From NCBI RefSeq assembly GCF_008642355.1, contig NZ_CP029193.1:5914001-5978000 (forward strand): a stretch of DNA of 64,000 nucleotides, given 5' to 3'. How positions within the stretch are numbered: the first letter of the stretch is position 1; each line of letters starts with the position of its first letter. The notes beneath the pieces are model-generated. The model did not search any database. It worked only from the letters and a program-made list of their open reading frames with translations, and was not told the origin of the DNA. The DNA is from Streptomyces venezuelae (lineage in GTDB: Bacteria > Actinomycetota > Actinomycetes > Streptomycetales > Streptomycetaceae). The position numbers and the translations under genes were made by a program. Positions 20,499 through 26,103 of the stretch are shown piece by piece.

Positions 20499-22181
20499 GT
20501 GCCGCAGAACCTCGACGCGGTCGCGGTGCGCGCCTGGTGCCGACTGGCTCTGGACGCCCTCGGCAGGGCCCGCGAGGAGATCGACTCGATCAACGTCTAC
20601 CCGGTCGCCGACGGGGACACGGGGACGAACCTCTATCTGACCGTGGAGTCCGCCTCCCAGGCGGTGGACGCGGCGTTCACGGGCCACGAGCCCGCCCTCC
20701 CCTCCCTGGCCGAGACGGTGCGCGCGATGGCGCACGGCGCGCTCATAGGCGCCCGCGGGAACTCGGGCACGATCCTGTCGCAGTTGCTGCGGGGGATGGC
20801 GCAGGTCATCGGCGCCCAGGGGGAGCCGGGCGGTGAGGCAGATCACGTCGAGGGGCCGGTCCTCGAGCGCGCGCTGCGGCAGGCCGCCGAATCCGCGTAC
20901 CAGGCGGTCGCCCACCCCGTGGAGGGCACCGTCCTGACGGTGGCCACCGCGGCGGCCGACGCGGCGACCGGCACCGGCGGCGACTGCGGGGCCGTGGCCA
21001 GGGCGGCGTACGACGGGGCCTGTGCGGCGCTGGACGCGACGCCGGGGCAGCTCGCGGTGCTCGGCCGCGCCGGAGTGGTGGACGCCGGAGGGCGTGGGCT
21101 CGTGGCGGTCCTGGGGGCGCTGACGGGCGCCCTGTCGGGTGAGAGCCTCATCCCGAGGAGCTCGGCGCACCTCAAGGGCTCGGTCCACGCGCGCGTGGAC
21201 GTCGACGGAGGCGAGGCCGTCGAGTGCGATGACGTACCCGGCGAGGAGGGCGGCCCCGCTTTCGAGGTGATCTACCTCCTGGAGGCGGACGACGCCGCCG
21301 TCACCCGGCTGCGGGCCCGCCTCGACCGGCTCGGCGACTCCCTCGTGGTGGTCGGCGGCGACGGGCTCTGGAACGTCCACGTCCACGTCGACGACGCGGG
21401 AGCGGCCGTCGAGGCCGGTGTGGAGGCGGGCCGCCCCCACCGCATCCGCATCACCCACTTCGGTGCGGACGACGCGCACACCACCTCCCAGCGCTCCACC
21501 GCCCCGCCTCGGGAACGCGCACAGCGTGCCGTCGTCGCCGTGGTGCCCGGCGAGGGCCTCGCGGGGCTGTACTCCGAGGCGGGGGCGACCACCGTGCCCG
21601 CGCGCGTGGGGGAGCCGCCCGCCAGCGGCGAGCTCGTCGACGCGATCCGGCGGGCCCACGCCCGCGAGGTCGTGCTCCTGCCGAACGACGCCGAGCTGCG
21701 GCACACCGCGGCTGCCGCCGCGGAACAGGCCCGCACCGAGGGCGTACGCGTCGCGCTCATCCCCACCCGCTCCGCGGTCCAGGGCATCGCGGCCCTCGCC
21801 GTGCACGAGCCGGACCGCCGCTTCGACGAGGACGTCGTCGCCATGACCTCGGCGGCCGGCGCGACCCGCTACGGCGAACTCGCCGTCGCCGAGCGCCAGT
21901 CCTGGACGATGGCGGGCATCTGTCAGACGGGCGACGTGCTCGGCCTGATCGACGGCGACGTCGCCGTGATCGGCTCCGAGGTGGCCCGCACCGCCGTCTC
22001 CGTGCTCGACCGGATGCTGTCGGCGGGCGGCGAGATGGTCACGCTCGTCCTCGGCGAATCCGTGCCGGACACCGTCGCCGAGCACCTGGAGAAGCACGTG
22101 CGCGAGACGTACCTGGCCGTCGACACCGTCGTCTACCGCGGAGGCCGCCAGTCGGCGCTGCTGCTGATCGGCGTGGAGTAG
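20499..22181 (+). CDS. DAK2 domain fusion protein (YloV/FakA-like)
   Basis: 560-residue kinase-like protein. The N-terminal DhaL/DAK2 domain (about residues 10-205) contains NVYPVADGDTGTNLYLT, whose Asp residues bind Mg-ATP, and GARGNSGTILSQLLRGMAQ. Middle and C-terminal domains match the YloV/FakA fusion. FakA phosphorylates FakB-bound fatty acids for phospholipid synthesis in Gram-positive bacteria. Whether the Streptomyces protein does so is untested here. The GTG at 20499 follows AAGGAGG; ATG at 20478 is less likely. recG follows after 50 bases, a conserved pairing in actinobacteria and Firmicutes. Confidence 0.88.
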   Translation: MPQNLDAVAVRAWCRLALDALGRAREEIDSINVYPVADGDTGTNLYLTVESASQAVDAAFTGHEPALPSLAETVRAMAHGALIGARGNSGTILSQLLRGMAQVIGAQGEPGGEADHVEGPVLERALRQAAESAYQAVAHPVEGTVLTVATAAADAATGTGGDCGAVARAAYDGACAALDATPGQLAVLGRAGVVDAGGRGLVAVLGALTGALSGESLIPRSSAHLKGSVHARVDVDGGEAVECDDVPGEEGGPAFEVIYLLEADDAAVTRLRARLDRLGDSLVVVGGDGLWNVHVHVDDAGAAVEAGVEAGRPHRIRITHFGADDAHTTSQRSTAPPRERAQRAVVAVVPGEGLAGLYSEAGATTVPARVGEPPASGELVDAIRRAHAREVVLLPNDAELRHTAAAAAEQARTEGVRVALIPTRSAVQGIAALAVHEPDRRFDEDVVAMTSAAGATRYGELAVAERQSWTMAGICQTGDVLGLIDGDVAVIGSEVARTAVSVLDRMLSAGGEMVTLVLGESVPDTVAEHLEKHVRETYLAVDTVVYRGGRQSALLLIGVE

Positions 22182-22231
22182 CCGGGCGGATCCCGGGGAC
22201 CTGCGCCGCATTGTCAGTGCCGTGGTGTGCA

Positions 22232-25200
22232 ATGGATCTCGTGCCCGCGCTCGAAGAACCCCTGAAGAAAGTGGTCGGCCCCGCCACCGCGAAGGTGATG
22301 GCCGAGCATCTCGACCTGCACACGGTCGGCGACCTCCTGCACCACTACCCGCGGCGGTACGCCGAGCGCGGTGAGCTCACCCGCCTCGCCGACCTCCCCC
22401 TGGACGAGCACGTCACGGTGGTCGCCCAGGTCGCGAGCGCACGCATCCTCAAGTTCAACGGCGGCCGCGGCCAGCGCCTGGAAGTCACGATCACCGACGG
22501 CAGCGGCCAGGTCCAGCTCGTCTTCTTCGGGCGCGGCATCCACAAGCCGCACAAGGACCTGCTGCCCGGCACCCGCGCGATGTTCGCGGGCAAGGTGTCG
22601 GTCTTCAACCGCAAGATGCAGCTGGCCCACCCGGCGTACGAACTGCTGCGGGGCGACGGCGACGAGGCGGGCGAGACCGTCGGTTCCTGGGCCGGCGCCC
22701 AGCTGCCGATCTACCCGGCCACCGCCAAGCTGGAGTCCTGGAAGATCGCCAAGTCGGTCGACATGGTCCTGCCCAGCGCCCAGGAGGCCCAGGACCCGCT
22801 GCCGCCCTCCCTCCGCGACGGACGCGGCCTGATCCCGCTCCCCGAAGCCCTCCTGAAGATCCACCGTCCGCACTCCAAGGCGGACATCGAGGCCGCCCGC
22901 GACCGCCTCAAGTGGGACGAGGCCTTCGTCCTCCAGGTCGCCCTGGCCCGGCGGCGGTACGCGGACGCCCAGCTCCCCGCCGTCGCCCGCAGGCCGAAGC
23001 CCGGCGGCCTCCTCGACGCGTTCGACGCCAAGCTGCCCTTCACGCTCACCGAGGGCCAGGAGAAGGTCTCCAAGGAGATCTTCGACGACCTCGCGACCGA
23101 ACATCCCATGCACCGTCTCCTCCAGGGGGAGGTCGGTTCGGGAAAGGCGCAACCACTTGATGCGCTGGTGCTGACTCCCGAAGGCTTCCGCCCGATGGGT
23201 GACATGAAGACCGGTGATCTCGTGGTCGTTCCCACCGGGGAGTCCGCGGTCGTCAGTGGCGTCTTCCCGCAGGGCGAACGGGACGTATGGCGTCTGACCC
23301 TCTCCGACGGCAGCTCCGTCGAGTGTGACGACGAGCACCTCTGGATCGTTGGCACCAGCTGTGGTTGGCACCGAGGGCAGCCGCCGAAGGTTCTGACGAC
23401 AAGAGAAATTCGCCTGGACCTCTTCGAGGCGAACGGTTCCTCGAAGTGGTATCTGCCCGCCGCCGCGCCGGTGGACCTGGGACACGACGAGCCGCTACCG
23501 CTCGATCCCTACCTCTTCGGCCTGCTGTTGGGGGACGGGTCGTTCCGCCACAACCTGCGGCTGTCCACGGTCGACGAGGAGATCCACGACGCGGCGGTCG
23601 ACGCCGTGGCGCCGGAGTGTCGTCTGGTCCGTGTGGCAGGTTCCTCGTGCGACTACACGATCCAGCCGGCACAGCGCTCGGGAGGCGTCCGCAATCCCGT
23701 CATTCAGGCCCTGCGCGACATGGATCTGTGGGGGGTGACCTCGCACGGAAAGTTCGTGCCCGAGGCCTTCAAGAACACTTCGATCAAGAATCGTTTGGCG
23801 TTGCTGCAAGGGCTGCTGGACACGGACGGCACGATTCAGTCGGACGGGTTGAGTATTTCCCTGTGCTCGGCGTCGCTCCGACTGGCCGAGGATGTCGCCT
23901 GGCTCGTGCGGTCACTTGGAGGGAGGGCCAGGGTGCTGCCGAAGAAGGCGGCGTTCAACGTTTCGATCGCGTTGCCCGAGGAGTACATGCCGTTCAGGCT
24001 GACGCGCAAGGCGGCGCGGGTGTGCCCGAGGCCGAAGTACAACACCTTCCGCAGGGGCATCCGCGGTGCCGAGTTCATCGGTCGGAAGCCGGTCCAGTGC
24101 ATCAGTGTCGCTCACCCGAGCAGTGCCTATGTCACCGACAACTTCACGGTCACGCACAACACGATGGTCGCGCTGCGCGCCATGCTCGCCGTCGTGGACG
24201 CGGGCGGGCAGGCCGCGATGCTCGCTCCCACCGAGGTCCTCGCCCAGCAGCACCACCGCTCCATCGTCGAGATGATGGGCGAGCTCGCCGAGGGCGGCAT
24301 GCTGGGCGGCGCCGAGCACGCCACGAAGGTCACGCTGCTCACCGGCTCCATGGGCGCGGCGGCCCGCCGCCAGGCCCTGCTCGACCTGGTCACCGGCGAC
24401 GCCGGGATCGTCATCGGCACCCACGCGCTGATCGAGGACAAGGTCCAGTTCCACGACCTGGGTCTCGTCGTCGTAGATGAGCAGCACCGCTTCGGCGTGG
24501 AGCAGCGCGACGCCCTGCGCGGCAAGGGCAAGCAGCCCCCGCACCTCCTGGTCATGACGGCCACGCCCATCCCGCGCACCGTCGCGATGACCGTCTTCGG
24601 CGACCTGGAGACGTCCGTCCTCGACCAGCTGCCCGCCGGGCGCTCGCCGATCGCCAGCCACGTCGTCCCCGCCGAGGACAAGCCGCACTTCCTGGCCCGC
24701 GCGTGGGAACGCGTGCGCGAGGAGGTCGAGAACGGCCACCAGGCGTACGTGGTGTGCCCCCGCATCGGTGACGATGTCGACGAAGCCGCGGACCCCAAGA
24801 AGGCCAAGAAGAAGGCCGAAGAAGAGGCCACCGCCGAGAAGCGGCCCCCGCTCGCGGTCGTCGAGGTCGCCGAGCAGCTCTCCCGCGGCCCGCTGAACGG
24901 CCTGAAGGTCGAGGTCCTGCACGGCCGCATGCAGCCGGACGACAAGGACGCCGTGATGCGCCGCTTCGCCGCGGGGGAGACACAGGTCCTCGTCGCGACG
25001 ACGGTCATCGAGGTCGGCGTGAACGTCCCGAACGCCACCGCCATGGTGATCATGGACGCGGACCGCTTCGGCGTCTCCCAGCTGCACCAGCTCCGCGGCC
25101 GCGTCGGCCGCGGCTCCGCCCCCGGACTCTGCCTCCTGGTCACCGACATGCCCGAGGCCAGCCCCGCCCGCGGCCGCCTCTCGGCCGTCGCCTCCACGCT

Positions 25201-25456
25201 CGACGGCTTCGAGCTGTCCCGCATCGACCTGGAGCAGCGCCGCGAGGGCGACGTCCTCGGCCAGGCCCAGTCCGGCGTCCGGTCCAGCCTGCGCATGCTC
25301 GCCGTCATCGACGACGAGGAGATCATCGCCGCCGCCCGCGAGGAGGCGGTCTCCGTGGTCGCCGACGACCCGGACCTGGAGCGGCTCCCCGCCCTGCGCA
25401 CCGCACTGGACTCCCTCCTCGACGCGGAGCGCGAGCAGTACCTCGACAAGGGCTGA
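22232..25456 (+). CDS. recG: ATP-dependent DNA helicase RecG, intein-containing precursor
   Basis: 1074-residue precursor. Removing the 338-residue intein (23147-24160) leaves a 736-residue RecG of normal length. RecG is a monomeric helicase that reverses stalled forks and branch-migrates Holliday junctions. The wedge/OB domain lies in the N-terminal third (VAQVASARILKFNGGRGQ, VQLVFFGRGI). Walker A, GEVGSGK/T, is split by the intein. After the intein come the DEQHRFGVEQR box (DExH), TATPIPRT, the VATTVIEVGVNVPNA motif, and QLHQLRGRVGRG near the C-terminus. ATG at 22232 is preferred over the TTG at 22211. The enzyme should be inactive until splicing. The host part shows usual high-GC codons; the intein does not. 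Confidence 0.96.
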   Translation: MDLVPALEEPLKKVVGPATAKVMAEHLDLHTVGDLLHHYPRRYAERGELTRLADLPLDEHVTVVAQVASARILKFNGGRGQRLEVTITDGSGQVQLVFFGRGIHKPHKDLLPGTRAMFAGKVSVFNRKMQLAHPAYELLRGDGDEAGETVGSWAGAQLPIYPATAKLESWKIAKSVDMVLPSAQEAQDPLPPSLRDGRGLIPLPEALLKIHRPHSKADIEAARDRLKWDEAFVLQVALARRRYADAQLPAVARRPKPGGLLDAFDAKLPFTLTEGQEKVSKEIFDDLATEHPMHRLLQGEVGSGKAQPLDALVLTPEGFRPMGDMKTGDLVVVPTGESAVVSGVFPQGERDVWRLTLSDGSSVECDDEHLWIVGTSCGWHRGQPPKVLTTREIRLDLFEANGSSKWYLPAAAPVDLGHDEPLPLDPYLFGLLLGDGSFRHNLRLSTVDEEIHDAAVDAVAPECRLVRVAGSSCDYTIQPAQRSGGVRNPVIQALRDMDLWGVTSHGKFVPEAFKNTSIKNRLALLQGLLDTDGTIQSDGLSISLCSASLRLAEDVAWLVRSLGGRARVLPKKAAFNVSIALPEEYMPFRLTRKAARVCPRPKYNTFRRGIRGAEFIGRKPVQCISVAHPSSAYVTDNFTVTHNTMVALRAMLAVVDAGGQAAMLAPTEVLAQQHHRSIVEMMGELAEGGMLGGAEHATKVTLLTGSMGAAARRQALLDLVTGDAGIVIGTHALIEDKVQFHDLGLVVVDEQHRFGVEQRDALRGKGKQPPHLLVMTATPIPRTVAMTVFGDLETSVLDQLPAGRSPIASHVVPAEDKPHFLARAWERVREEVENGHQAYVVCPRIGDDVDEAADPKKAKKKAEEEATAEKRPPLAVVEVAEQLSRGPLNGLKVEVLHGRMQPDDKDAVMRRFAAGETQVLVATTVIEVGVNVPNATAMVIMDADRFGVSQLHQLRGRVGRGSAPGLCLLVTDMPEASPARGRLSAVASTLDGFELSRIDLEQRREGDVLGQAQSGVRSSLRMLAVIDDEEIIAAAREEAVSVVADDPDLERLPALRTALDSLLDAEREQYLDKG
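23147..24160 (+). mobile_element. Class 3-type intein with LAGLIDADG endonuclease in RecG
   Basis: In-frame 338-residue insertion between Lys and Thr of the RecG Walker A motif. Residue 1 is Ala, not Cys or Ser. The last residues are VTHN, and the +1 extein residue is Thr. The class 3 triad is present: Trp66 in block B (EHLWIV, with His64), Cys318 at block F position 4 (VQCISV) and Thr336 before the penultimate His (block G position 5). The endonuclease domain has two dodecapeptides, LFGLLLGDG (residues 123-131) and LLQGLLDTDG (219-228), each with its acidic residue, plus a block D-like KFVPEAF. The coding is less GC-biased at third positions (for example TTG and CGT codons near 23790) than recG. 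Both splicing and homing functions look intact. Confidence 0.95.
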
Positions 25457-25509
25457 CGCCGCCGTACGCCATATCGTGGGATGACCACCGTCCAGCCAGA
25501 AGGAATCAG

Positions 25510-26103
25510 ATGACCCGCGTGATCGCCGGCACGGCCGGCGGACGCCGCCTGGCCGTCCCGCCGGGCAACGGCACCCGCCCCACGTCCGACCGCGCGCGCG
25601 AAGGCCTCTTCTCCACCTGGCAGGCCCTTCAGGGCACGCTCGACGGGGCCCGTGTCCTCGACCTGTACGCGGGCTCCGGAGCCGTCGGCCTGGAGGCGCT
25701 GTCCCGCGGCGCCGCCCACACCCTGCTCGTCGAGGCCGACGCGCGGGCCGCCCGCACCATCCGCGAGAACGTGAAGGCCGTCGGCCTGCCCGGCGCCGAG
25801 GTACGGGCGGGCAAAGCCGCCCAGATCGTCCGGGCCGGGGCGCCGACCAGCCCGTACGACCTGGTCTTCCTCGACCCTCCGTACGCGGTCACCGATGACG
25901 ATCTTCGGGAGATCCTCCTCACACTCCGCTCGGAGGGCTGGCTCACGGAGGACGCGCTCGTCACCGTTGAACGCAGTACAAGAGGCGGTGTCTTCGGCTG
26001 GCCGGAGGGTTTCGAGGCCCTCAGGTCCCGTCGCTACGGCGAAGGGACGTTTTGGTACGGTCGCGCCGCCTCTACGTGCGACGACTCAGTGATCGCGCCA
26101 TGA
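25510..26103 (+). CDS. rsmD: 16S rRNA (guanine(966)-N(2))-methyltransferase RsmD
   Basis: 197-residue SAM-dependent methyltransferase. [18 protein letters not shown] is the RsmD N-terminus, [15 protein letters not shown] the RNA-recognition loop, [20 protein letters not shown] motif I and LVFLDPPY the catalytic motif IV (DPPY). It methylates G966 of 16S rRNA. Length is typical. It lies between recG and coaD, a conserved order; the coaD frame overlaps or closely follows its stop. Confidence 0.95.

Follow-up and report, generated by a model that had tools for sequence, protein, structure and literature searches.

In a 64,000-nucleotide stretch of the Streptomyces venezuelae chromosome (NCBI RefSeq assembly GCF_008642355.1, contig NZ_CP029193.1, positions 5,914,001 to 5,978,000 of the forward strand; hereafter the window), the gene for the helicase RecG appears to carry a mobile intein of class 3 that is fixed in the P-loop and whose LAGLIDADG homing endonuclease is probably intact, a reading to which we assign a probability of about 0.92. 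No second recG was detected. The source genome is one 8.0-Mb contig with a single match to the intein. As the initial annotation had described, the insert comprises 338 codons, is in frame and without a stop, and lies at 23147-24160 between GSGK and T of the RecG Walker A motif.

The class 3-type insert in the RecG P-loop

The features are given below in window coordinates; the 135 rows are aligned RecG-intein sequences whose composition is described in the next section.

22232..25456, + strand: recG precursor gene, 1074 codons (ATG at 22232 taken as the start; frame open from TTG at 22211)
22232..23146, + strand: RecG N-extein, C-terminal end ...LLQGEVGSGK
23147..24160, + strand: class 3-type intein, 338 amino acids
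23147..23497, + strand: Hint splicing domain, N-terminal half (residues 1-117 by our own partition, which was also used for the substitution-rate analyses)
23336..23338, + strand: His64 codon (block B:10), invariant in 135/135 rows
23342..23344, + strand: codon for Trp66 (block B:12), which opens the Trp-Cys-Thr (WCT) triad, invariant in 135/135 rows
23498..23989, + strand: homing endonuclease domain of the LAGLIDADG type (residues 118-281 by our own partition; Pfam, AlphaFold fold)
23513..23539, + strand: LAGLIDADG motif 1 (LFGLLLGDG), acidic residue D130
23804..23830, + strand: LAGLIDADG motif 2 (LQGLLDTDG), acidic residue D227
23990..24160, + strand: Hint splicing domain, C-terminal half (residues 282-338)
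24098..24100, + strand: codon for Cys318 (block F:4), the putative nucleophile that starts splicing (role from PMC5222942), invariant in 135/135 rows
24152..24160, + strand: Thr336-His337-Asn338 (G:5, G:6, G:7), invariant in 135/135 rows
24161..25456, + strand: RecG C-extein
24161..24163, + strand: +1 Thr of the C-extein, which is the Walker A Thr of RecG; Thr in 135/135 occupied and 41/41 empty recG rows

The host protein scores 1127.7 bits against the RecG equivalog model (cut-off 995). The precursor has 1074 residues and a computed mass of 116.6 kDa, the intein 36.9 kDa, and spliced RecG would have 736 residues and 79.7 kDa, close to the approximately 78 kDa first estimated. The G+C content at third codon positions (GC3) is 0.825 in the insert and 0.955 in the RecG parts. 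Scanning of positions 22000-25700 found neither promoter nor terminator, a scan that is uninformative for Streptomyces.

Class 3 inteins, as defined in PMC5222942, have Trp at B:12, Cys at F:4, Thr at G:5, no nucleophile at position 1 and Ser or Thr at +1. The RecG insert begins with Ala, so that there is no Ser, Thr or Cys at its first position, has Trp66, Cys318 and Thr336 in the three blocks, and ends in His-Asn followed by Thr+1. It thus has each of the sequence features by which class 3 is defined, in agreement with the initial annotation, which had also correctly read two LAGLIDADG motifs with their acidic residues, D130 and D227. An AlphaFold model of the insert (predicted local distance difference test score 91.5) shows a splicing domain with the Hint fold together with an endonuclease of the LAGLIDADG family. 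Among the matches listed, the splicing half has its lowest root mean square deviation (1.5 Å) from the class 3 Mycobacterium smegmatis DnaB intein, and the endonuclease fold matches PI-SceI and I-DmoI. The profile search proposed in the initial annotation recovered the endonuclease (Pfam LAGLIDADG_3, PF14528, E 9e-8, above cut-off). For the insert, no Hint or splicing-domain family was listed by Pfam; the case for the splicing half therefore rests on PDB matches, motifs and predicted fold. The phmmer matches in PDB were to the gp41-1 intein (E 6e-10) and the mycobacterial DnaB intein 6bs8 (E 3e-4). PRK07773, a replicative-helicase model of NCBIfam, matches insert residues 32-263 at E 8e-14, far under the model cut-off. 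In a quick tree, class 3-like rows separated from class 1 rows at a Shimodaira-Hasegawa-like approximate likelihood ratio (SH-aLRT) support of 100, with three class 1 rows only and long branches.

Among the nearest known counterparts are M. smegmatis DnaBi1 and Mycobacterium chimaera DnaB1 (PDB 6bs8, 6rix, 6riy), which are likewise class 3 inteins in a P-loop. They are, however, mini-inteins with Ser+1, whereas the RecG intein has an endonuclease and Thr+1, is 24-28% identical to them over the aligned part and lacks Cys48. The gp41-1 intein, although the best PDB match by sequence, belongs to class 1; when the WCT triad was grafted onto it, it mainly cleaved (PMC7664689). Insertion between Lys and Thr of a P-loop is described as classic for inteins in PMC5050341, and a table of intein-containing proteins in a 2018 review (PMC5874633) includes RecG, with neither class nor species stated. 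RecG is thus already known as an intein host, and mobile elements of the kind seen at the RecG site are known as well. Our literature search found no paper on a class 3 RecG intein, and a RecG entry in older intein surveys is possible. The InBase registry may list a Streptomyces RecG intein.

Occupied and empty recG sites and movement of the intein

To establish presence or absence at the insertion codon, as the initial annotation had proposed, we searched 295 Streptomyces genomes with separate sequence patterns for the filled and the empty recG site. The site was filled in 55 genomes, empty in 236, both in none and neither in four (G001, G050, G099 and G119, two of which are 79% and 82% complete). 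All 55 filled loci were read, and each is recG with the arrangement VGSGK-intein-T; the 41 of the 236 empty sites that were read are all recG with intact VGSGK-T. The RecG intein is therefore common within Streptomyces, and the view that an intein is unusual in recG of this genus has to be given up. An insert that recurs in 55 of 295 genomes might be taken for a lineage-specific RecG domain, yet the same codon is empty in 236, the insert has intein junctions and an intein fold, and the 55 sampled copies are all distinct and come from independent assemblies. We consider it extremely improbable that an ordinary domain of RecG, or an artefact of sequencing or assembly, accounts for the segment; the empty sites rule out the normal domain, which the initial annotation had named as a finding that would overturn it.

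Beyond these loci, a protein search with the intein matched 95 of the 295 Streptomyces genomes at E ≤ 0.001, with many of the matches in other host proteins. In an order-level draw the filled pattern matched 46 of 245 genomes, including one of 18 outside Streptomyces (G574), where locus L254 holds an intein in recG whose endonuclease is damaged; a further match, G689, is atypical in sequence and known from the pattern match alone. In a class-level draw the intein protein matched 112 of 296 genomes, and among the matches listed identity above 50% was confined to Streptomyces. A second sequence set consisted of the best 80 of 141 relatives from a contig search, all titled Streptomyces. Together with the 55 sampled copies they form the 135 RecG-intein rows, 111 of them distinct, with 24 named rows identical to sampled ones. 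Many such intein-bearing proteins, among the matches listed, are annotated in their source as just ‘helicase-related protein’, which affects gene annotation.

To compare the histories of intein and host, we built a RecG tree from the 55 filled genes and 41 of the 236 empty ones (12 chosen by the search tool and 29 picked by us among the matches listed, mostly from large contigs). The filled or empty state changes at least 17 times on this tree (mean of shuffled states, 30.9; none of 500 as low), and well-supported branches force at least eight changes. The intein data reject the RecG tree (ΔlnL, the log-likelihood difference, 781) and the reverse comparison gives 1533, with 13 of 52 splits shared. 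Either half of RecG set against the intein gives a ΔlnL of 491-963 and 12 of 52 shared splits, as against 153-220 and 26 of 52 for the two RecG halves against each other. Because the conflict between the intein tree and the host tree is several times larger than that between the two halves of the host gene, the trees indicate that the RecG intein moves horizontally. Two pairs whose recG genes are nearly identical while their inteins lie far apart illustrate this in the proportion of silent-site differences (pS): 0.088 in recG versus 0.590 in the intein for L009/L016, and 0.125 versus 0.420 for L003/L019. Silent-site divergence is, however, generally faster in the inteins (median pS 0.554, versus 0.350 for RecG), which bears on the reading of such pairs. 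RecG and intein distances also correlate overall (Spearman 0.77, 1485 pairs, proportion of nonsynonymous differences), and taken with the faster intein divergence this means that inheritance is mixed.

These observations bear on a rather unlikely alternative, in which the intein splices, its endonuclease is already inactive in the source strain, inheritance is vertical and the patchy distribution reflects losses. The distance correlation would fit it, as would damage in 26 of the 55 sampled copies (described below). However, the window copy is not shortened and retains both Asp residues, its RecG groups with an empty-site gene (L141, 98% identity), its nearest sampled relative, and the next two relatives are also empty. 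The size of the tree conflict and the L009/L016 pair likewise argue against purely vertical descent, the latter with the reservation about silent sites given above. The initial annotation had read transfer from third-position base use. Transfer itself is supported, by the tree conflict and the empty nearest relative; low GC3 is weak by itself, being common to 47 of the 55 copies, and we set it aside as proof of recent transfer.

Several points weigh against our reading that the insert is a mobile class 3 intein. The nearest PDB chain by sequence, gp41-1, is a class 1 and not a class 3 intein. The two RecG halves reject each other's tree as well, which leaves the extent of the conflict as the informative part. 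The near/far ratio of differences, taken as a sign of co-conversion of flanking DNA, was 1.115 in carrier/empty pairs versus 1.058 and 1.026 in controls, a margin that gives no clear signal for or against it. Finally, the conservation counts are partly conditioned by the search patterns at Ala1 and the signature-block residues: the pattern behind the 55 sampled copies demands Ala1, and signature-block residues are present in two of the six patterns behind the 80 named rows. This conditioning is bounded by the independent protein search and the four unplaced genomes.

Endonuclease decay, selection on RecG and a proposed cycle

Ala1, His64, Trp66, Cys318, Thr336, His337 and Asn338 do not vary in any of the 135 rows. 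The endonuclease is less well kept: 20 of the 55 sampled copies are shortened (247-327 amino acids) and in 20 a LAGLIDADG motif lacks its acidic residue, so that 26 show one or both kinds of damage and 29, the window copy included, look intact. In full-length copies the median ratio of nonsynonymous to synonymous substitution (dN/dS) is 0.106 for the Hint domain, 0.157 for the endonuclease and 0.145 for the RecG parts (simple counting, with pairs that are not independent). Purifying selection on RecG is retained in carriers, whose dN/dS is not raised: it is 0.105 in carriers (21 pairs) versus 0.129 in empty genes (11 pairs) at dS 0.05-0.25, and 0.127 (618 pairs) versus 0.242 (224 pairs) at dS 0.25-0.45. 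Since RecG without a restored P-loop would be expected to relax, and no relaxation is seen, the RecG intein very probably splices. Mean GC3 is lower in full-length copies than in shortened ones (0.819 versus 0.899; Mann-Whitney p 5e-5), a rise that fits codon amelioration once mobility is lost but is confounded by clade.

From the location of the insert, its signature residues and predicted fold, its presence and absence, the tree conflict and the pattern of selection, all of which are observed, we infer the following molecular steps. The 117-kDa precursor of RecG would have its P-loop interrupted and would be inactive until splicing, as the initial annotation had supposed. Cys318, aided by His64 and Trp66, would attack the Lys-Ala junction, giving the branched block F intermediate expected of class 3; the N-extein would be transferred to Thr+1, and cyclization of Asn338 and an acyl shift would rejoin GSGK to T, yielding RecG of 80 kDa and releasing the 37-kDa endonuclease. 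The freed enzyme could then cleave empty-site recG alleles, into which recombination repair would copy the intein. After fixation the endonuclease would decay, splicing being retained because RecG is under selection.

By analogy, the insert might instead be a regulatory switch in which oxidation or zinc at Cys318 holds back splicing and makes RecG conditional, a reading that we regard as unlikely. Redox and zinc control are established for the M. smegmatis DnaB class 3 intein: H2O2 inhibits DnaBi1 by way of a disulfide between Cys48 and Cys118 (PMC6195587), and zinc does so at its catalytic Cys (PMC7360933). The RecG intein has a cysteine, Cys60, beside the Asp61-x-x-His64 motif, and 133 of the 135 rows share it. 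Nevertheless, the partner Cys48 of DnaBi1 aligns with Val47 (Val in 134 rows, Ile in one), so that a Cys48-type redox partner is absent and redox control would need another residue, for which Cys60 is a candidate. Moreover, 236 of 295 Streptomyces genomes do without the intein.

If splicing is confirmed, a single genus would provide filled, empty and half-decayed versions of the same intein in a helicase gene that is not duplicated, each represented by many genomes. Near-identical recG pairs would then allow direct tests of the homing cycle, of how fast the endonuclease decays and of what an intein costs a repair helicase. A RecG-site family would also be added to the class 3 inteins, and its value lies in being a well-sampled natural experiment with an unusually clear record of spread and decay.

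Related inteins in other hosts, plasmids and phages

Related inteins in Streptomyces and other Actinomycetes occur in PhoH, in the P-loop of DnaB, in TraG/VirD4-like and Clp-like AAA proteins (the TraG-like and Clp-like labels are our own, given from sequence) and in a methylase-helicase (G567). Mycobacterial PhoH class 3 inteins are shown in PMC6195587. The statement of the initial annotation that class 3 inteins are known mainly from phage and replicative-helicase hosts is thus too narrow. In the quick tree each host site forms a clade of its own, with nine groups and eight changes, the minimum possible. In a separate analysis all RecG-site inteins, including a Rhodococcus plasmid copy, group as one clade (support 99/95).

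A search of plasmids matched 36 of 72,556 records, three of them from Rhodococcus at 46.9% identity. One is the mobilizable Rhodococcus rhodochrous plasmid NZ_CP120357.1 (L279, 2603-6280), in which a RecG-like gene beside two integrase genes bears a P-loop-site intein. This intein and the two others share with the RecG intein the site LLQGDVGSGK/T (the slash marks the insertion point), the WCT triad and both LAGLIDADG motifs, but they are plasmid-borne and their host protein scores under the RecG equivalog cut-offs. The pattern points to plasmids as carriers, a route that we infer. More speculatively, and in our estimate quite improbably, the RecG inteins of Streptomyces could represent successive natural stages of homing that were disseminated via plasmid copies of RecG; where the endonuclease has decayed, the splicing domain would persist as a slow post-translational switch of recombination repair, gated by Cys60 and Cys318.

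Among phages, 471 of 50,697 records matched, all below 60% identity, the best among the matches listed at 37.5%. Phage helicase and DarB-like inteins, together with that of a chromosomal methylase-helicase (L252, VGAGK/T), resemble the RecG intein in being class 3-like and in a P-loop, whereas every phage match differs from it in its lower identity. In viral contigs, a single intein sequence as query matched two stretches, none of them confirmed as a RecG-specific intein, and an alignment as query matched 22 loci at 30-34% identity; a loose junction search listed four of these 22, of which L257 and L264 read GTGK/AQPLD. Class 3 inteins have been proposed to originate from phages (PMC4031507 and PMC3196547), and the kinship pattern fits this idea.

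The PhoH class 3 inteins of Actinomycetes share with the RecG intein the class 3 signature, an endonuclease and Thr+1 and are 39-46% identical to it in the loci read; they differ in host and in site (YMRGR/TLN) and form a separate clade (100). Such class 3-type inteins were found at YMRGR/TLN in most of L111-L115, L117, L126, L129, L130 and L174-L190, with Ser at position 1 in L111 and L190. At one site of the TraG-like gene, the inteins of L127 and L116 begin with Ala, and that of L119 (G128) begins with Cys and keeps the Trp/Cys/Thr triad; it is possibly intermediate between class 1 and class 3. The Clp-like AAA protein has inteins in both P-loops in L127 (G090) and L119 (the N-junction of the first lying outside the cut). 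At the DnaB P-loop site, class 3 inteins are present in L118, L120, L122-L124 and L128, and L125 (G073) has a class 1-type intein (Cys1, VVHN/S).
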